Shown: positions 22,052 through 31,752 of the stretch, one piece after another
How positions within the stretch are numbered: position 1 is the first letter of the stretch
Layout: each line of letters opens with the position of its first letter
NCBI GenBank assembly: GCA_020061705.1
Contig: JAGUXT010000006.1
Location: 1 to 41,603, forward strand
Direction: 5' to 3'
Length of the DNA stretch: 41,603 bases
DNA from: Halothiobacillus sp.
GTDB lineage: Bacteria; Pseudomonadota; Gammaproteobacteria; Halothiobacillales; Halothiobacillaceae
Notes under the pieces: generated by a model
Databases searched by the model: none
What the model saw: only the letters and a program-made list of their open reading frames with translations
Told to the model about the DNA's origin: nothing
Position numbers and translations under genes: made by a program

Positions 22052-22414
22052 ATGTCCAGACACCACCCCACGGATATTCAATTGCATCGCGCCAGCCGCG
22101 TGCTTGACGTGCATTTCGATGATGGTTATCAGTGTGCACTGCCCTGCGAATATCTGCGTGTATTCTCCCCTTCCGCCGAAGTTCGCGGCCATGGTTTACC
22201 TGAACCGCTGTTGGTGATCGGCAAACAAGACGTCAACATTGATGCCATTGAGCCCGTCGGCCAATACGCCATCAAACTGGTCTTCGACGACGGTCACGAC
22301 AGCGGCTTGTATGATTGGGATTTCCTGTACCAGCTTGGACAGGATTACAGCAGCAACTGGACGCGATATCTTGAACGACTCGCCGCTGCCGACATGAAAC
22401 GAGAAAACACATGA
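22052..22414 (+). CDS. DUF971 family protein
   Basis: A 120-residue small cytosolic protein of the DUF971 family, related to the N-terminal domain of gamma-butyrobetaine hydroxylase and to domains fused with Mrp/ApbC proteins. Typical pieces are L-V-FDDG-type strands ([30 protein letters not shown] starts at about 17) and the C-terminal [13 protein letters not shown]. Biochemical role unknown; links to iron-sulfur protein handling in the family are only suggestive. The ubiE start overlaps its stop by four bases, so the two are translationally coupled. Confidence 0.85.
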
Positions 22415-23172
22415 ATACGACCGAAACGCAGCACGACACCACCCACTTCGGCTACCGCCAAGTCCCGCTCGGCGAAAAAGCCCGGCTGGTGCGCGGTGTA
22501 TTTGATTCCGTGGCGGGCAAATACGATTTGATGAACGATCTCATGTCCCTGGGCATTCATCGTTTATGGAAGCGAATCACCCTCTCGCGTACCGGCCTGC
22601 GCCCCGGTATGCGCGCGCTTGATCTGGCGGGCGGCACTGGCGACTTATCCTCCGGCATGTTGCACCAAGTGGGGCGCACAGGTCTGGTAGTACTGTCTGA
22701 CATCAACGCCGAAATGCTGACCCGTGGGCGCGACCGCCTGATTAACGAAGGTGCCAGCCAGGAAGCGCAAAGCGCATTGGTGAATGCCGAAGCCATCCCC
22801 TTCGCCGATAACAGCTTCGATGCCGTCACCATCAGCTTCGGCCTGCGCAATGTCACCGACAAGGACAAGGCGCTAAGCGAGATGCTGCGCGTACTCAAAC
22901 CCGGTGGCCGCGCGCTGGTGCTGGAGTTTTCCAAACCGCGCCACGATCTGACCCAGAAAATCTACGACCTGTATTCATTCAAGGCGCTACCGCTGATGGG
23001 CAAACTGGTGGCCAAGGACGAAGCCAGCTACCAGTATCTTGCCGAATCCATTCGCATGCACCCCGATCAGGACACCCTCAAAGACATGATGGAAAACGCG
23101 GGCTTTGTTAACTGCGACTACCTGAATATGTCCGATGGCATCGTGGCCCTGCACTGGGGCTTCAAAGCGTGA
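22411..23172 (+). CDS. ubiE: Ubiquinone/menaquinone C-methyltransferase UbiE
   Basis: A SAM-dependent C-methyltransferase acting on the benzoquinol ring in ubiquinone synthesis, and on demethylmenaquinol where menaquinone is made. It has 253 residues. Typical features are the [18 protein letters not shown] stretch, the SAM loop [12 protein letters not shown], and [14 protein letters not shown]. It overlaps both the upstream DUF971 gene and ubiJ downstream. With ubiJ and ubiB it makes the standard ubiEJB operon of proteobacteria. Confidence 0.97.
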
Positions 23173-23783
23173 TCCCTGAACTGGCCGAACTCGCACGCCT
23201 TGGGCTGGAAAAAGCCTTCAATGCCGCACTGGCGACCGACCCCGACGCGCAAGCCAGCCTGGCTGCACTGAATGGCAAGCGCCTACGCATCGAATTCAAA
23301 GGCTTGTTCAGCCTGGATTTTTTGCCGCAAGGCGACCAGGTGATCATTGCCGCAGTGGGCATCGACACGCCCGATGCCACCCTGCGCGCCTCTCCCTTCG
23401 GCTTTGTACGCGCCAAAATGCGTGGCGATTTAATGCATGGCGATCTTGAGTTGTTGGGCGACAGCCATACCAGCATGCGTTTCTCTCGGCTGCTGAGCAG
23501 CCTCAACCCCGACATTGAACTCGCATTGGCACCCAAAGTCGGCAACCTGCTCGCGCATCAAATCGCCCGTGTATGGCACGCGATGCGCTTTGAACTGGCG
23601 CGCTTGGTGCAACACCACACCCACAACAAAGCCGATTTTTTGCACGATGAGCTCGATGTCAGCCCGCGCCAAATCGAGCTCGAAATCTGGTTGGATGCCA
23701 TCGACCCGTTGCAAAACCGTATCGCCGCACTGGATGCGCGCATCCGCGCCCTGGAAGCCGGAATGTCAGGAAAGAACACATGA
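23169..23783 (+). CDS. ubiJ: Ubiquinone biosynthesis accessory factor UbiJ
   Basis: UbiJ binds lipid intermediates and helps organise the soluble Ubi enzyme complex. It has 204 residues with an N-terminal SCP2 sterol-carrier-like domain and a C-terminal heptad-like segment ([16 protein letters not shown]) that could form a coiled coil. The start codon is GTG at 23169, inside the ubiE stop overlap (GTGA). It overlaps ubiB by four bases. Sequence conservation of the family is low, so the assignment rests on the SCP2 pattern plus the position between ubiE and ubiB. Confidence 0.9.
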
Positions 23784-25348
23784 GCCACCCGCGCCAATTT
23801 ATGCGCCTGTTTACCATCCAGTGGGTGCTGATGCGCCACGGCCTCGACGAACTGCTGTTTGCCATCCCCTGGTTCAAGCCCGCCAGTTTCCTCATGCGCC
23901 TCTCACCTTGGCGTCTGTTTGGCAAAAGCACGCTCCGCCCGCGCGCCGAACGCATCCGTCTCGCCCTCGAAGAACTCGGCCCCATCTTCATCAAATTTGG
24001 ACAGGCGCTCTCCACCCGCCGCGACCTGTTGCCGGAAGACATCGCCGACGAACTGGCCAAACTGCAAGACCGCGTGCCGCCTTTCCCCGGCGAGCAAGCG
24101 CGGCAGATCATTGAAGCCGCGCTCAAAAAACCGGTCAGCGAACTGTTTTTGGACTTCAACGAAATCCCATTGGCCTCCGCCTCCATCGCCCAGGTTCACC
24201 CCGCCACCCTCAAGGATGGACGCGACGTCGTGGTCAAGGTCGTGCGCCCGAATATCCTGCCGGTGATCGAACGCGACCTCGAAGTGCTGCACACCCTCGC
24301 CTATCTGGCGGAAAAATCCTCCGCCGACATCCGCCGCCTGCACCCGCAGGATGTCGTCGGTGAATTCGACAAAACCATCCACGACGAACTCGACCTGGTG
24401 CGCGAAGCAGCCAACTGCGGCCTGCTGGCGCGCAACTTCGAAGGCTCGCCGCTGCTGCACGTCCCCGCCATCGACTGGGATTACAGCCACCCCAACGTCA
24501 TGGTGCAAGAACGCATTTACGGCATCCAGATCAGCGATGTCGAAGGACTCAACGCCGCCGGAATCAACATGAAAGTCCTCGCCGAACGCGGCGTGGAAAT
24601 CTTCTTTACCCAAGTCTTCACCCACAACTTCTTCCACGCCGACATGCACCCCGGCAACGTCTTCGTCTCGCCGGACACCCCCGACACACCGCGCTACATG
24701 GCCGTGGACTTCGGCATCATGGGCAGCCTCACCCCCGACGACCAACGCTATCTGGCCGAAAACTTCCACGCCTTCTTCAACCGCGACTATCGCCGCGTGG
24801 CCGAACTGCACATCGAATCCGGCTGGGTGCCCGCCGACACCCGCCTGAATGAATTTGAAGCCGCCATCCGCACCATCAGCGAACCCATATTCCAGCGCCC
24901 GATCCGCGACATTTCCTTTGGCAAATTCCTCTTGCGCCTGTTCCAGACCGCACGCCGCTTCAATATGGAAGTACAGCCACAGCTGGTGCTGCTGCAAAAA
25001 ACCCTGCTCAATATCGAAGGACTCGGCCGCCAGCTCTACCCCGACCTCGACCTGTGGACGACCGCCAAACCCTTTATCGAACGCTGGATGATCGAACGCG
25101 TCGGCCCCAAAGCCGCCCTTAAAACCCTGCGCCACGAACTGCCGCGTGTCTTGGCCTTGTTACCCGAAATGCCGCGCCTCACCCACGAAGCCCTCACCGC
25201 CCAAAGCAAACAAGCCGAACTCATGCAACGCCAAACCGCCGAACTGAATACCCTGCGCCAGCAAATGGAGCGTGGGCAGCGTTGGATGATAGTGATGTTT
25301 GGTGTGCTAGTAGTGTTGGCGGGGGTGATTGCTTATGCTCTGCTTTGA
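23780..25348 (+). CDS. ubiB: Ubiquinone biosynthesis kinase-like protein UbiB
   Basis: A membrane-anchored ADCK/ABC1-family atypical kinase-like ATPase needed for ubiquinone synthesis. Motifs: KFGQ (72-75, the KxGQ element), the alanine-rich loop ASASIAQVH (132-140), the ATP-binding Lys in VVKVV (151-155), HADMHPGN and VDFGIMGS. The C-terminal 25 residues are a transmembrane segment ([20 protein letters not shown]). The length of 522 is slightly below the E. coli 546. It is the last gene of the ppc-ubiB operon. G+C is high and codon use matches ubiE. Confidence 0.97.
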
Positions 25349-25456
25349 CAAGCAAGGCACAGGCATCACAAGGAATGACGCGCCGGGTTTATTGTCTTCA
25401 CAAGCCCTGATTTTATTGTTCCCACGCTCCCTACTAGACCAGCAAATGCTACCACT

Positions 25457-26218
25457 ATGACAGCGCCGTTCTTGGAGCGTCTCTCGCTCAAGGAGAATGC
25501 CGAATTATCGCAAGCCGAATTCCCCGGCAATCTGCCGTTTGTCCGCACTCTTGACATACGGTTCACGAACGCTGTGACCTTCTTCGTCGGGGAGAATGGC
25601 TCGGGAAAGTCGACCGTGATGGAAGCTATCGCCTCATTATGTGGGCTGCCGACCGCTGGCGGCGGTCGTAACGAACTTGCAGACATCAAGGCACCGCACG
25701 CACACAGCGAGCTGGCGCCGTTCGTGCGGGGCGCCTTTCGGCGCAAACCCCGGGACGGGTACTTTTTCCGAGCCGAATTTCAGGCGCATTTCGCGACTCT
25801 GCTCGATGAGCGCCGCGCGGATCCCGACTTTTTGGGCAATCCCTACGCGCGATACGGCGGACGCTCCTTACACACCAGATCCCATGGTGAAGCGTTCCTC
25901 GAGGTATTTTCTGCATGGCTCAACCCTGGGATAATCCTCATGGACGAACCCGAGGCAGCCCTCTCCCCTCAGCGTCAACTCGCCTTGCTCAGCAAGATGG
26001 GCAAACTGGCAAAATCTGGTGACATCCAGTTTGTTGTGGCAACGCACTCACCCATCATTTTGACATTCCCGAACGCGACGCTGCTTTCCTTTGATGGCGA
26101 GTGCATTGAATCAACTCATCTCGAAGAGACATCCCATTTCCACATCACCAAGGGCATCCTTGATGCTCCCGATCGTTTCTGGAAACACCTCCTCGCTGAC
26201 GATGAGGAGGGCTATTGA
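25457..26218 (+). CDS. COG3910-type AAA ATPase
   Basis: A 253-residue soluble ATPase with a single ABC/SMC-like nucleotide domain. The P-loop GENGSGKST is at 45-53, the signature-like RSLHTRSHGEAFL comes in the middle, and the Walker B IILMDEPE at about 157-164 is followed by ALSPQRQLALL and the switch His of ATHSPI. This is the predicted-ATPase family COG3910, of unknown substrate. No convincing ribosome site precedes the ATG and no partner gene is adjacent, so it looks like an isolated insertion between ubiB and the flavoprotein. Role in defence or DNA metabolism cannot be shown. Confidence 0.8.
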   Translation: MTAPFLERLSLKENAELSQAEFPGNLPFVRTLDIRFTNAVTFFVGENGSGKSTVMEAIASLCGLPTAGGGRNELADIKAPHAHSELAPFVRGAFRRKPRDGYFFRAEFQAHFATLLDERRADPDFLGNPYARYGGRSLHTRSHGEAFLEVFSAWLNPGIILMDEPEAALSPQRQLALLSKMGKLAKSGDIQFVVATHSPIILTFPNATLLSFDGECIESTHLEETSHFHITKGILDAPDRFWKHLLADDEEGY

Positions 26219-26341
26219 TCCAGCCCGCGAGGGTGGAATAACCAATAAAATAACCAATGCGACTGAAGAAAGCCCCAGCTATGGTTAAGTAAACTGGTGC
26301 CGGAATGATTGAACCGGGTAAGAGATAAACCCCGCGTCTCC

Positions 26342-27469
26342 CTAACGGTATTTTTTGAGATACATCACTTCAAACATGCGCTTGCCCCAGTGCAGCAGGC
26401 GGCATGGAGGAAGAATGAACATGCGCTTGTGGTCGCGGTACACAAGAATGCCTTTGTTGAGTGAGTCCATAATGCAAATCAGCTCCCAACGAAAGGTTTT
26501 GTTTGTAGGGGTGCCGCGTATTTCGGCGAGGAGGTTTTGCGCCGCTGCCACGGCTTGCAGATCGGCCATGTGCGCCTGCTTCGGCGCCCAATCCGGGCCG
26601 GGGAAGCTGCCGGAATCGCCTGCGACATAAACCTTGTCAAAGCCTGCCACGCGGCAATGTGCATCGGCCTGGATCAGGCCACCCGGCGAGGTGGGGAGGC
26701 CGCTGCCTTCCATCCACGTCGGGCCGGTCATGCCCGGCATGAACAGGATCAGATCGGTGGCAAACTCCCCGCCTTCGGTCACGACTTTGTCGGCTTCAAA
26801 GCGCACCATTTTGTGCCCGAGTTGCGTTTGGATGTCCAGCTTGGCCATACGCTTGAGCAGTGCGTCAACCGCAGCTTCGCCGAGACGGTTGCCCGGACGC
26901 GCTGCGGGATTAAAGAACACCAGTTTGAATTTATCGCGTCGCCCCTGGCGGCGCAGCATGGTGTCCAGACCAAGCATGAGTTCGAAGACCGGACCACCGC
27001 GCACGGCGGAGGGTTCGTTGGGGTTGCCGCCAAAGCCGAGTGCGATGGTGCCGCCGTCCATGCTTTCAATGCGGTCACGGATGCGTTCAGCAGCATCAAT
27101 CCCTTCGCACAGGGTGATGGCGTGTTCGATGCCGGGCAGTCGCTTGATAAAACGCCCGCCGCTGGCAATGATGAGGCCATCGTTGCTCACTTCGCCATTC
27201 TCGGTCATTACGATGCGACCACCATCCTTGAGGCCGGTCACGCGCCCGGCGTGGAATTGAACACGTTGACGGGCAAGGAAATTGCGCAAATCAATACGCA
27301 GATCGTCACCCTTGCGCAGGCGTGACGGAATCCAGATCAGGCTTGGTGCATAGATCAACTCAGCCTTGGGCGCGATCAGGGTAAGCTCGGCTTCGGGGTC
27401 TTGTTTACGCAGCTCGATGACGGCGGTCAGGGCGGCAAAGCCAGCCCCAATGATAGTGATGCGACTCAT
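26342..27469 (-). CDS. SQR-like FAD/NAD(P)-dependent oxidoreductase
   Basis: A 375-residue flavoprotein of the two-dinucleotide-binding-domain family, nearest in pattern to sulfide:quinone oxidoreductases. The FAD motif IIGAGFAALTAV starts at 6, the second FAD motif is YVAGDSGSFPGPDWAPKQAHMADLQ (about 281-305), and the C-terminus is basic and aromatic, suited to membrane contact. Cysteines C121 (TLCEG) and C332 (ELICIMD) sit where SQRs have their first and third conserved Cys. The middle Cys region reads AVRGGP without Cys. The ATG at 27469 starts MSRITIIGAG; the longer in-frame reading is less likely. Substrate uncertain. Confidence 0.75.
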   Translation of the reverse strand: MSRITIIGAGFAALTAVIELRKQDPEAELTLIAPKAELIYAPSLIWIPSRLRKGDDLRIDLRNFLARQRVQFHAGRVTGLKDGGRIVMTENGEVSNDGLIIASGGRFIKRLPGIEHAITLCEGIDAAERIRDRIESMDGGTIALGFGGNPNEPSAVRGGPVFELMLGLDTMLRRQGRRDKFKLVFFNPAARPGNRLGEAAVDALLKRMAKLDIQTQLGHKMVRFEADKVVTEGGEFATDLILFMPGMTGPTWMEGSGLPTSPGGLIQADAHCRVAGFDKVYVAGDSGSFPGPDWAPKQAHMADLQAVAAAQNLLAEIRGTPTNKTFRWELICIMDSLNKGILVYRDHKRMFILPPCRLLHWGKRMFEVMYLKKYR

Positions 27470-27822
27470 GTTCAGGCGGTCTCTTGGACTTTGTTGCGGG
27501 ACTTTTGTTGCGGATTTAGCCGTTGCCAGGAATGCTGCCAGGCGCCGCAACCCAAAAAATCAAGGCTTAGTCATAAAAATTAAGTATATGCCCATACCAT
27601 TTAAAAATCACACTCCCCCTTCGTGCCTGTCACACCAAACAGGGCGAGCCCGATGACAAAGTTCGTTAAGATCACCGGGTTAATCCATCACACCAAGCAA
27701 ACATTTTTCACGTCGGTCAATGCGGAATGAGTTAGGCGACTTGAACAAATGTCTATTTCGCCTCAAGCAAACGATCCAGCCGCTAGCAGCCTGTCATCCA
27801 CGTCCAGTTCACCAGACTCGGT
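27470..27822. other. 353-base non-coding region with a fetB remnant
   Basis: This gap lies upstream of the flavoprotein gene and downstream of the unknown gene, both on the minus strand. It should contain the flavoprotein promoter. AGTATA at 27583-27588, TATACT on the minus strand, is a possible -10. It also holds the short fetB 3' remnant described separately. No other gene or RNA is seen. Confidence 0.6.
27753..27792 (-). pseudogene. Remnant of a fetB 3' end
   Basis: Read on the minus strand, 27753-27782 encodes RLDRLLEAK and a TAG stop; the intact fetB at 30952-30981 ends RLDRLMEAK and TAA. The 12 bases 27771-27782 are identical to 30970-30981, and the other differences are mostly synonymous. 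After a CTAG insertion (27783-27786) the match continues for six bases. Nothing further upstream of the gene is recognisable here. Confidence 0.6.
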
Positions 27823-28728
27823 TTAAACCACAGACGGCTTGAAATCCCTTAACAAAAAGCCCGGAAAATGCGCAGAACAGGCCATGACATGGGTGATGGC
27901 TTCACGGTCGTATTGATCGCCAGACTGATAATGTTCAAAGAAGGTGTGCAGCCGCTGCACGCGTTGCGCCATGGCGTGCACGGCTTGCAGGCCGATCGAC
28001 ACGCCGTAATTCGTGAAGGCAAACTTGACCTGCGGATACCCCGGCTCCCGGCAGAAATATCCTTGCTCCATCCACATGTGCTCAAGCATTTCCAGGCAGC
28101 GCTCCTGTTGGCTGACCGACCATGCTTCCTGCGGGAAAAAATGGGACATCCAGAGCATCATGCCCAAGCCCAAATCCTGACTAATCAACAAGCTGGGCTC
28201 CATGCGTTCGATCAGCCGCCGCATATCGTCAATTTCACGCGCCAAACCCTGCTCATCAAGCAGCCGATAGGCCAGATAACCATCAAACGGATCAAGCGCA
28301 CCGAAACCATACCCCGGATAAGGATGGCTGAGATTTTCAGCCATCTTCCAAAAGACACCCCGATTGGGTACGACAAAGGCATCGTGAATCTGGTGCACAA
28401 GATCAATACCCTGCTGGCGATACCTTGGGATATATCGACCGAGTATGGCCAAGGCGAATAACCACATGGCGAGATAATGAAAATATTGTCCGTCTCGGTC
28501 ATCGGCTTCGCCAATCCGAATCCCGCGCGCTCGCCCCAAAACCCGATCAACCTCACTCACCAGCCACTCAGCTTCATCCAGATAGCGCTTTTCGCCGGTT
28601 TCGGCATATAGCGATACCAGAAGCACAACGCCAAACGCGTCCGTCCAGAGGTAACGTAAACCATTCGGCCATATCTGTTGCTCACGCATCCAGGCCAATT
28701 TATCGAGCACATAACTTATGTTCACCAT
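27823..28728 (-). CDS. Protein of unknown function, 301 residues
   Basis: I do not recognise this family. The protein is soluble, with no signal peptide or transmembrane segment, and rich in Trp, Tyr and His. Repeated helix-pair-like segments (YLDEAEWLVSEVDRVLG, EQGLAREIDDMRRLIERM) suggest an alpha/alpha-barrel fold like that of six-hairpin glycosidases and epimerases, which is only an impression. The ATG has a strong GGAGGA ribosome site 5 bases upstream. It lies 18 bases after the methyltransferase-esterase gene, so the two are surely cotranscribed. Its stop is about 30 bases from the fetB remnant. Confidence 0.7.
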   Translation of the reverse strand: MVNISYVLDKLAWMREQQIWPNGLRYLWTDAFGVVLLVSLYAETGEKRYLDEAEWLVSEVDRVLGRARGIRIGEADDRDGQYFHYLAMWLFALAILGRYIPRYRQQGIDLVHQIHDAFVVPNRGVFWKMAENLSHPYPGYGFGALDPFDGYLAYRLLDEQGLAREIDDMRRLIERMEPSLLISQDLGLGMMLWMSHFFPQEAWSVSQQERCLEMLEHMWMEQGYFCREPGYPQVKFAFTNYGVSIGLQAVHAMAQRVQRLHTFFEHYQSGDQYDREAITHVMACSAHFPGFLLRDFKPSVV

Positions 28729-28746
28729 CTGTTCCTCCCAATAAGT

Positions 28747-30750
28747 TTAGAGGCCAAACGGATAAGTATCGGGCAATCCTTCAAGCGCTTGGGTTTTTAA
28801 CGGCGTCACGGCGGTTGTCTGGTCAAACCAGACGTATTCATCAAACTGTTTAGGCAATATCGACTGAAAATAATGACTCTGTCGTTCGCTCTCGGGGCGG
28901 TAAATCACGCCGATGGCGCGCTCCAATCGCGGTTTTTGCAACTTCGCAATCAAGGACGGCCTGGGCGAGTCGCGCAGGGGCAGCAAAAAACGGGCGACGC
29001 CGGACTCATGACACAGCAGTTCATAGCTATCCTTAAGCGACGGGCGCACTGACATCACCTCCATGGGTGCATCCCAGTTGGATGCCGCAGCGACGGTCCC
29101 CGTATGGGTACCAAAACCAATGATGTAAGCCGCCTCACCGAATTTCGCACGGCAGAGTTGGCCGATATTGAATTCTCCGCGCAAGGACATCTCGGTGGCT
29201 TTTGCATTCCCCACATGCGAGTTATGCGCCCAAACAATGGCTTTACTGTTGGCGCCGTGGTGCTGCAACAGGCTTTCCAGTGTTTCGAACATATGGCTAT
29301 CACGCAGATTCCACGAGCTGCGTGAACCGTAATACATGATTCGATAATAATGCTCGGCGTTGGCGACCAGTTTGGCATTCTGCACAACATCCAGAAAGCG
29401 CTCGCCATCGTGTGCAGCATAAGCCTGCCGTTTGCTTAGCAAGTCCTTAAGCATGGCAACCACCTCCTGCTCGCAGGTGCGGTAGCGTTCGGTCAGCGCC
29501 GCATGACCATAGGCTGCCGGGTCTGATTGCCAGGGTGTCAGGCAACCGTATCGCATGCGCGCCGTCTCGGCGGTCGCCGGATCAACTTTTTCGAGATAAG
29601 CCAAAATCGAGCGAATCGAGGTGTAAAGGCTGTACATATCCAAGCCGTAAAATGCGACGCGCTGGATTGGCTCAAGATGCGAATTGTGCATGCGCAACCA
29701 TTCGGTAAAGGTGCGAACCTCTTCATTTCGCCACATCCAGGTGGGAAAGCGGGCAAAGGCCGTCCATTCCGACGGCGGATATTCCGCATGCCTGACATAG
29801 TGGTCGATGCGAGCCGCATCCGGCCAGTCGCCTTCAATGGAAACAAAGGAAAAGCCTTTTTGCTCAATCAAGGCCTGGGTAATGCGGGCACGTGATTGGT
29901 AAAACTCCGATGTGCCATGCGATGCCTCACCCAGCAACACAACCCGCGCATCACCGATGCGTTCCAACAGCGGGGCAAGATCGATGGAGTCTATGGATGA
30001 AAAGGACTCACAGGCTTCGCCTATCGCAGCGGCCAAGCGAGCCTCATCAGGTTGAAGGACTGGGGTCGGCTTGCGAGCCCCAGCCTCAGGCTTTCCCGGT
30101 TGCCAGCCCTCCTCGCCAAGGAGCGGCACAAAGCGCACATCAGCCAGTTCTTCGGTTTGGTATTGATGCTCGGAAACTCGCACGATTCGAATCAACTCTT
30201 GCGAGTACTGATCGGACCCGACGGGAATCACCAGGCAGCCGCCAAATTTAAGTTGACTCTTGAGTGACTCCGGCACCTTGGGGCCGCCCGCTGCGACGAC
30301 GATGGCATCGTAAGGCGCATGTGCTGACCAACCGAGCGTCCCGTCGCCTACCAATATCTCCACATTGTTAATTCCCTCAGCGGCCAAGGTTGCCTTGGCT
30401 TGCTGAGCAAGCTCGTCAACCCGTTCAACGCTGAACACATGCGCGGCAATATGCGACAAAACCGCTGCGGCGTAACCTGATCCGGTACCAATATCGAGGA
30501 CGGTCTCCCCGCCTTTTAAATTCAGTGCGTCAACCATCATGGCGACAATATACGGTTGCGAAATGGTTTGCCCCGCCGCGATGGGCAACGGTGCATCCTC
30601 ATAGGCAAACTCACGTAATTCTTCGGGTAGGAATGCCTCGCGATGGACAAGATCCAAAGCCTTAAGCACCAAGGGGGAAGACACGCCACGAGCCTTGATT
30701 TGATGTTCAATCATCCATCGACGTTGTTGGGCGTAATCAATCGCATTCAT
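28747..30750 (-). CDS. PCMT methyltransferase fused to erythromycin-esterase-family domain
   Basis: A 667-residue two-domain protein. Residues 1 to about 215 are a protein-L-isoaspartate O-methyltransferase domain (QTISQPYIVA at 61-70, SAM loop VLDIGTGSGYAAAV at 84-97). A Pro-rich linker follows (about 217-235), then an erythromycin-esterase-like domain with GEASHGT (274-280), the EGDWPDA segment at 306-312 and WAHNSHVGNA near 504. The known family roles are repair of isoaspartyl residues and hydrolysis of lactones or esters; what the fusion acts on is unknown. The ATG at 30750 is preceded by GAGGTG at 7 bases. It is cotranscribed with the unknown gene downstream. Confidence 0.88.
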   Translation of the reverse strand: MNAIDYAQQRRWMIEHQIKARGVSSPLVLKALDLVHREAFLPEELREFAYEDAPLPIAAGQTISQPYIVAMMVDALNLKGGETVLDIGTGSGYAAAVLSHIAAHVFSVERVDELAQQAKATLAAEGINNVEILVGDGTLGWSAHAPYDAIVVAAGGPKVPESLKSQLKFGGCLVIPVGSDQYSQELIRIVRVSEHQYQTEELADVRFVPLLGEEGWQPGKPEAGARKPTPVLQPDEARLAAAIGEACESFSSIDSIDLAPLLERIGDARVVLLGEASHGTSEFYQSRARITQALIEQKGFSFVSIEGDWPDAARIDHYVRHAEYPPSEWTAFARFPTWMWRNEEVRTFTEWLRMHNSHLEPIQRVAFYGLDMYSLYTSIRSILAYLEKVDPATAETARMRYGCLTPWQSDPAAYGHAALTERYRTCEQEVVAMLKDLLSKRQAYAAHDGERFLDVVQNAKLVANAEHYYRIMYYGSRSSWNLRDSHMFETLESLLQHHGANSKAIVWAHNSHVGNAKATEMSLRGEFNIGQLCRAKFGEAAYIIGFGTHTGTVAAASNWDAPMEVMSVRPSLKDSYELLCHESGVARFLLPLRDSPRPSLIAKLQKPRLERAIGVIYRPESERQSHYFQSILPKQFDEYVWFDQTTAVTPLKTQALEGLPDTYPFGL

Positions 30751-30767
30751 TTCACGCACCTCGCACA

Positions 30768-30803
30768 TTGATAAATCTATCAAAAGAGCAGAAATACAAA
30801 CAA
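30768..30803 (-). promoter_or_regulatory. Candidate promoter with palindromic operator for the PCMT-esterase gene
   Basis: On the minus strand TTGTTT (30798-30803) and TAGATT (30774-30779) are spaced by 18 bases and fit a weak sigma-70 promoter. A perfect palindrome, TTGATA-AATC-TATCAA (30768-30783), covers the -10 element, a typical repressor position. A further inverted repeat, TTATGTC/GACATAA, lies upstream at 30840-30864. No regulator gene is adjacent. Confidence 0.35.
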
Positions 30804-30951
30804 GATTTGCGGCCACCACTGAATCAGAGTCTTAGCCACTTATGTCTGTTATGCAAGGACATAAATCGGCGAGGCTCACGACCTTTCCCTCAATAAATAT
30901 TAAGAATCGGTCATTGCTGCATCGACAGTTTCCGCGAGTCTTTACCTGACC

Positions 30952-31752
30952 TTATTTAGCCTCCATTAGACGATCCAGCCGCAGCCTTTGGCGTTCGTCA
31001 AACAGGCGGCGCGTACCTAACTCAATTGCCAGCATGGTGCCCAGACCGGTGGCACTGGTAATCAAAAACATGAGCAAAATCTGATATTTTACCGCTTCAA
31101 TCGGCGACGTTCCGGCCAGAATTTGCCCGGTCATCATCCCTGGCAAACTCACTACCCCGGCGACGGTAAGCATATTGATGGTCGGCACCATGGCGGTGTG
31201 CAGGCTGTCCTGGCGTAATTTGCGCGAGGCTTGGCGCATGTCGTAACCGAGCAGTAACTGTGCTTCGATTTCTCGTCGGCTCGCCGCCGCGCCCAAAGTC
31301 AGGCGGTTGAAGCCCAAGCCGATTCCGGTCATGGTATTACCCAGAATCATGCCCAACAGCGGAATGGCATACTGCGGCGTGTACCACGGCTGCACACCGA
31401 CCAATACCACCAAGGTGAACAAGGTCAGCGTAAACGCAGGCAAGGCCATCGCCACCAGACCGATGCCATAGCCCCAGCCGCCGCGCAAACGCCGCTTTTG
31501 CCGTGCTACCACTTCCCAGCCTGCCACCGCGAGCATCACCAACCCCATCAGCACCACCAGCCACGGGTTATTCAGCCGGAACAGCGCCTCCAGCACTACG
31601 CCGATCAGCAGCAATTGCAGCGTCATGCGCAACGATGAGACATACAAAGAACGCGTCAGCCCCAATCCGCTCAAGGCGATAAGCGCGCCAAGAATCAGCA
31701 CCAACAAGGCCGCCATGCCAAGATCAAGCGCACTCAACTGGATCAAGTTCAT
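30952..31752 (-). CDS. fetB: FetB-type ABC exporter permease
   Basis: The membrane subunit of the FetAB (UPF0014) transporter, linked in E. coli to iron export and oxidative-stress resistance. It has 266 residues and about seven hydrophobic segments. Family blocks seen include ALSGLGLTRSLYVSSLRMTLQ, GMILGNTMTGIGLGFNRL and the conserved MLTVAGVVSLPGMMTGQILAG. Its ATG overlaps the fetA stop by four bases. The last codons (RLDRLMEAK) also occur as a remnant about 3.2 kb away. Confidence 0.92.
   Translation of the reverse strand: MNLIQLSALDLGMAALLVLILGALIALSGLGLTRSLYVSSLRMTLQLLLIGVVLEALFRLNNPWLVVLMGLVMLAVAGWEVVARQKRRLRGGWGYGIGLVAMALPAFTLTLFTLVVLVGVQPWYTPQYAIPLLGMILGNTMTGIGLGFNRLTLGAAASRREIEAQLLLGYDMRQASRKLRQDSLHTAMVPTINMLTVAGVVSLPGMMTGQILAGTSPIEAVKYQILLMFLITSATGLGTMLAIELGTRRLFDERQRLRLDRLMEAK

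Follow-up and report, generated by a model that had tools for sequence, protein, structure and literature searches.

Integrase-type genomic islands that enter a gene's 3' end leave a partial copy of that gene end at their far boundary. The cross-over cores of site-specific integration are identical when they form. A comparable scar also arises by a route that involves no integrase, as in orphan Rhs tips and in the displaced effector 3' ends of V. cholerae type VI secretion (T6SS) loci, where incoming DNA that shares a conserved stretch of a gene comes in behind that stretch and moves the former 3' end downstream (PMC5361080, PMC3240628). The displaced effector ends in the T6SS loci have been attributed, tentatively, to homology-facilitated illegitimate recombination (PMC5361080), in which one junction is made by homology and the other without it (PMC3240628).

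Here we describe a locus in the sulfur bacterium Halothiobacillus in which a two-gene operon separates the iron-export permease gene fetB from a copy of fetB's own end that still borders a Uma2 gene. We consider it moderately likely that the operon was inserted once behind fetB, by recombination anchored in fetB and with a non-homologous far junction, in the lineage of the window organism and its congener G004. Compared with the T6SS and Rhs scars, the gene concerned is a housekeeping permease gene, the cargo is unrelated to it, and a single event in one genus is involved; the homologous anchor is something we infer. The window, by which we mean the whole stretch of 41,603 nucleotides analysed, corresponds to contig C28 in a genome of 2.27 Mb. 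Its features around the insertion are as follows.

26342 to 27469, minus strand: flavoprotein gene (pyridine nucleotide-disulphide oxidoreductase, PF07992, sulfide-quinone-reductase-like), across the insertion from fetB
27704 to 27739, minus strand: 12-codon scrap of a Uma2 (PF05685) gene, SPNSFRIDRREK, located by tblastn with the Uma2 protein of the congener G003 (10 of 12 residues identical)
27753 to 27782, minus strand: stub, the last 9 codons and stop of fetB (RLDRLLEAK-stop); 24/30 bases shared with the fetB end, 28/30 with the stub of G004
27823 to 28728, minus strand: one of the two cassette genes, 301 aa, no Pfam or NCBIfam match above cut-off, predicted (alpha/alpha)6 barrel (hereafter the putative barrel gene)
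28747 to 30750, minus strand: fusion of a protein-L-isoaspartate O-methyltransferase (PCMT) domain (PF01135, E 3e-62) and an erythromycin-esterase domain (PF05139, E 8e-139), 667 aa; NF001453 over cut-off
30952 to 31752, minus strand: intact fetB, UPF0014 permease (PF03649, E 2e-81), single copy in the genome
31749 to 32366, minus strand: fetA-like ABC ATPase gene (PF00005), overlapping fetB; best NCBIfam match FetA, below cut-off

A sequence-only reading of this DNA had proposed that a duplicated fetB end, RLDRLLEAK-stop against RLDRLMEAK-stop, frames a two-gene cassette, and that chance similarity was unlikely. All of this was borne out: the putative barrel gene and the fusion occupy the gap, in the order given. 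The minus-strand sequence of 27753-27782 is CGG CTG GAT CGT TTG CTT GAG GCG AAA TAG, and the intact gene ends, at 30952, in CGG CTG GAT CGT CTA ATG GAG GCT AAA TAA. The stub and the last 30 bases of fetB (30952-30981) agree at 24 positions, 12 of them contiguous. The runner-up match to the fetB end, over the whole window and both strands, has 18/30, and 300 shuffles of the gap gave best matches of 16 to 20, never more. A motif of 28 stub bases, with at most 3 mismatches allowed, finds one site in the genome of the window and one in G004, and is absent from the other three congeners. In G004 the likeness to fetB reaches about 33 bases (an extra CTG), and in the window it is extended by AGGCT with a 4-base interruption; going towards the insert, similarity between stub and fetB ends some 33 bases in. 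A sequence search of the gap between stub and fetB found no further fetB fragment. A promoter scan, uninformative here, gave no sigma-70-like site in the region.

The stub is just 30 bases long, which leaves room to suspect a chance match or a faulty assembly. Chance is contradicted by the shuffles and the runner-up. The stub is not an assembly artefact, because G004, a metagenome-assembled genome (MAG) that was put together independently, has the same gene order and the same stub. Both origins are effectively ruled out.

What did the site look like before the operon was there? Four congeners (G001 to G004) were compared. The same-genus relative G004 (matching contig DYLI01000069 from a MAG that bears the label Halothiobacillus neapolitanus isolate SulCav_AS07-7) has a filled site, with the order Uma2, fetB stub, putative barrel gene, fusion, fetB, fetA, peroxiredoxin; its contig begins inside Uma2, and the linkage to the flavoprotein falls outside it. 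In G003 the order is flavoprotein, Uma2, fetB, fetA, peroxiredoxin, with a single fetB end; both cassette genes are absent and there is no trace of the operon. A different gene follows fetB in G002, and G001 gave no fetB match. The flavoprotein of the window is 95% identical to that of G003, which lies beyond Uma2, and the Uma2 scrap of the window sits directly beyond the stub, at the place and on the strand expected from G003. Taken alone the scrap has an E value of 0.037, and it is position and strand that carry weight. Most simply, the ancestral order was fetA-fetB-Uma2-flavoprotein. Since Uma2 follows fetB in G003, adjoins the stub in G004 and persists as a scrap in the window, the stub occupies the position of the ancestral fetB end, and an insertion is therefore supported.

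That the two cassette genes came in together at the end of fetB, as the earlier reading had it, is supported by the empty site of G003 with its single fetB end, and further by the stub beside Uma2 in G004, the wide occurrence of the operon and a gene tree pointing to horizontal transfer. That reading had also looked for a strain with fetB directly beside the flavoprotein gene and one copy of the end. G003 supplies the single end and lacks the cassette, but its Uma2 gene and repeat elements intervene between fetB and the flavoprotein. The Uma2 gene of G003 is flanked by two direct repeats of about 120 bp, at L051 6469-6590 and 7421-7545 (GATCCGGTCAGCTTTATCCGTGATTGTCC...GTGCGCATGGCGCACCCTACG...), between flavoprotein and fetB.

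In the history we favour, the incoming DNA would have carried the 3' part of a fetB gene followed by the operon. The first junction would have formed by homologous recombination within fetB, and the second, non-homologous, 30 to 33 bases before the stop of the recipient's own fetB. The gene would thereby have remained whole, closing with the incoming end, and the final 9 codons of the recipient's own copy would have come to lie beyond the operon, still beside Uma2; near-complete deletion of Uma2 in the window would be a later step. Like the products of homology-facilitated illegitimate recombination, the locus has a far junction without long homology and an old end displaced downstream, with the stub lying by the native Uma2 in G004. 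Divergence taken segment by segment along fetB gave no clear step, and no breakpoint is visible. We infer that homology on one side was the cause, with the stub as the native end and the current fetB end as the incoming one. The fetB end of G003 shares 24/30 bases with the stub and 21/30 with the fetB end of the window, a length of 30 bases being too short to tell which of the two is native; on visual inspection, the sequence immediately after the G003 stop seems slightly closer to the sequence that follows the current fetB.

A different sequence of events would begin with a tandem duplication of fetB, or of its 3' end, after which the arriving operon separated the two copies, or took the place of the second one, and left only the stub. 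An old duplicate could explain why stub and current fetB end are about as far apart as the fetB genes of sister species; when the window and G004 are compared, moreover, the stubs group together and so do the fetB ends. This course requires an extra step, however, and the gap holds no other piece of fetB. The genome has one fetB, and no same-family relative searched showed two strong fetB matches. A transient duplication is possible, and we regard the duplication history as a whole as unlikely, though it deserves a hearing. The proposal that a second fetB had been lost by deletion found no support on the same grounds, and the same holds for a second full fetB within the gap.

The timing of the insertion can be questioned as well. 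Median fourfold-site identity is 0.63 between the window and G003, 0.64 between the window and G004, and 0.59 between G003 and G004, and the pooled values are about 0.60-0.64 for every pair. By this measure of sequence the three species appear about equally diverged, too evenly to give a branching order. Near-equal divergence would suit an insertion that predates the separation of all three species, with loss of the operon from G003 through recombination between the two fetB ends. The intact Uma2 gene of G003, the repeat elements beside its fetB and the traceless absence of the operon speak against such a loss, and we think it rather improbable.

Could the end of fetB instead have served as an attachment site, as the earlier reading suggested? 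A site-specific, integrase-type element might have used the fetB 3' end, so that the repeat would represent attL and attR, and then have lost its recombinase gene. The geometry fits, one end restoring the gene and the other being a partial copy, and integrase genes are present elsewhere in the genome (seven PF00589 matches). The 41.6-kb contig, however, has no match to this integrase domain, which confirms for the contig the earlier remark that no integrase is present; the inserted DNA consists of the two operon genes only, with no PF00589 integrase in or beside it. The two copies of the repeat share only 24 of 30 bases. The empty site with one fetB end in G003 agrees with an attachment site and is compatible with other explanations too.

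The same cargo at other sites provides the more direct evidence. A flank-to-flank comparison, run on operon copies with enough flank, is weak for diverged copies and barely detected the repeat of G004. We therefore rely on a direct comparison of neighbouring gene ends with the opposite flank, in 37 operon copies from several phyla (185 ends, 35 loci). The window (24/30) and G004 (22/30) were the only ones to stand out; everything else gave at most 19/30, the level of the control. A copy of a flanking gene end is found in two of the 37 operon copies, both from congeners and both at fetB, and in none of the remaining 35. The search for the same two genes bounded by gene ends elsewhere thus returned the window and G004 alone, and the attachment site is left unsupported. 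The repeat belongs to one insertion, not to the operon. Integrase-type islands resemble the locus in the partial gene-end copy at the far boundary; here, by contrast, the contig lacks an integrase, the repeat copies are not identical, and the same cargo occurs elsewhere without a repeat. We reject the attachment site as the main reading because of the count of two in 37 and the contig without an integrase, and give an integrase-type origin a low probability. Most likely the stub is the scar of a one-off recombination rather than a place where a mobile element docks.

Where did the operon come from? In a tree of the putative barrel gene, the window and G004 group with G022 and G010, members of another genus of Halothiobacillaceae (support 99/94), and two further members of that genus, G014 and G006, fall outside this group. 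Between the window and G022 the fusion is 88% identical and fetB 61%. Because the gene tree nests this genus inside another, transfer of the operon is indicated, and horizontal transfer between the genera is the simplest reading. The donor-like copies known in the genus of G022 and G010 do not adjoin fetB, and a history in two steps is needed for that reason.

Between the window and G004 the operon is among the least diverged regions, with fourfold-site identities of 0.77-0.80 for the cassette genes, 0.56 for the adjacent fetB and a background median of 0.64. The background genes had been filtered against antisense shadow reading frames, which inflate identity, and most of these were removed; two background genes come close at 0.75 and one lies higher at 0.81. 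The sequence comparison suggests that the cassette may have been exchanged between the two lineages after the species split. A recent transfer between them is not claimed, as the low synonymous divergence lies within the upper range of background genes. On the other side of the insertion, four genes at 22411-27469 of the window are much closer to G003 (fourfold identity 0.78-0.82) than the genes either side (0.39-0.67). This step in similarity stops at the insertion site and looks like a recombination tract.

Both domains of the fusion are full length and far over the Pfam cut-offs. The PCMT domain spans residues ~12-214 (210 bits against 20.3; profile positions 5-209 of 210) and the erythromycin esterase domain residues 295-645 (464 bits against 26.4; positions 1-358 of 358). 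Here they are joined in one protein, which is paired with a putative epimerase-fold protein. The fusion falls short of the macrolide-resistance models EreA, EreB and EreD, with at most 42.5 bits against NCBIfam cut-offs of 750-800. For the putative barrel protein, an AlphaFold2 model (pLDDT 94) aligns with 3wkf over 290 residues (VIA-align Z 23.4, rmsd 3.3, 11% identity). It is predicted to be an epimerase-fold protein like the N-acylglucosamine/cellobiose 2-epimerases and GH76 enzymes, which would share its overall fold at a Z of about 23. Compared with those enzymes it is shorter and only 7-12% identical, and the likeness is one of predicted fold, not of sequence family. A reading as a defence system was set aside: PADLOC returned nothing for the putative barrel gene, and for the fusion a methyltransferase-domain match (mad2) only.

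A scan with the putative barrel protein found 78 loci. In about half of them the fusion lies directly upstream on the same strand, ~25 bp apart, and the pair is conserved in Pseudomonadota, Planctomycetota, Gemmatimonadota and others. Recurrent neighbours of complete operons are FtsH (5), Lon (3), universal stress protein (3), DnaJ (2) and nitroreductase (3), as raw counts without a random-neighbour control. Judging from domains and neighbours, the operon likely helps stressed cells to repair or turn over damaged proteins. More speculatively, and with less than even confidence, it may be an undescribed, horizontally spreading protein-damage-response unit whose insertions recur next to genes of quality control (FtsH, Lon, DnaJ, Usp), and its two proteins may share a single substrate, a damaged or glycated protein. 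A literature search over titles and abstracts found no description of the fusion or of the operon, which is widespread and apparently undescribed.

The locus shows, cleanly and in a natural setting, how a chromosome can gain a small operon that has no mobility genes, and the evidence of addition consists of filled and empty sites together with a scar that preserves the old gene end. It reveals no new mobile element. The scar is ordinary in kind; what it points to is a widespread operon, little described and possibly stress-related, in which a protein-repair methyltransferase fused to an esterase-like domain is paired with a predicted epimerase-fold protein.

Incomplete relatives of the operon occur as well. 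In genomes of genus g4, of the same family (L037-L043), the fusion is 63-65% identical and the putative barrel gene is missing. Another family member (L234 7131-7652, G018:C60) carries a decayed piece of the latter gene with stops, likely a degenerate copy. FtsH precedes the putative barrel gene in at least two loci that lack the fusion: at L161 3896-5935 and L177 3916-5976 it lies directly after a gene for an FtsH-type protease.
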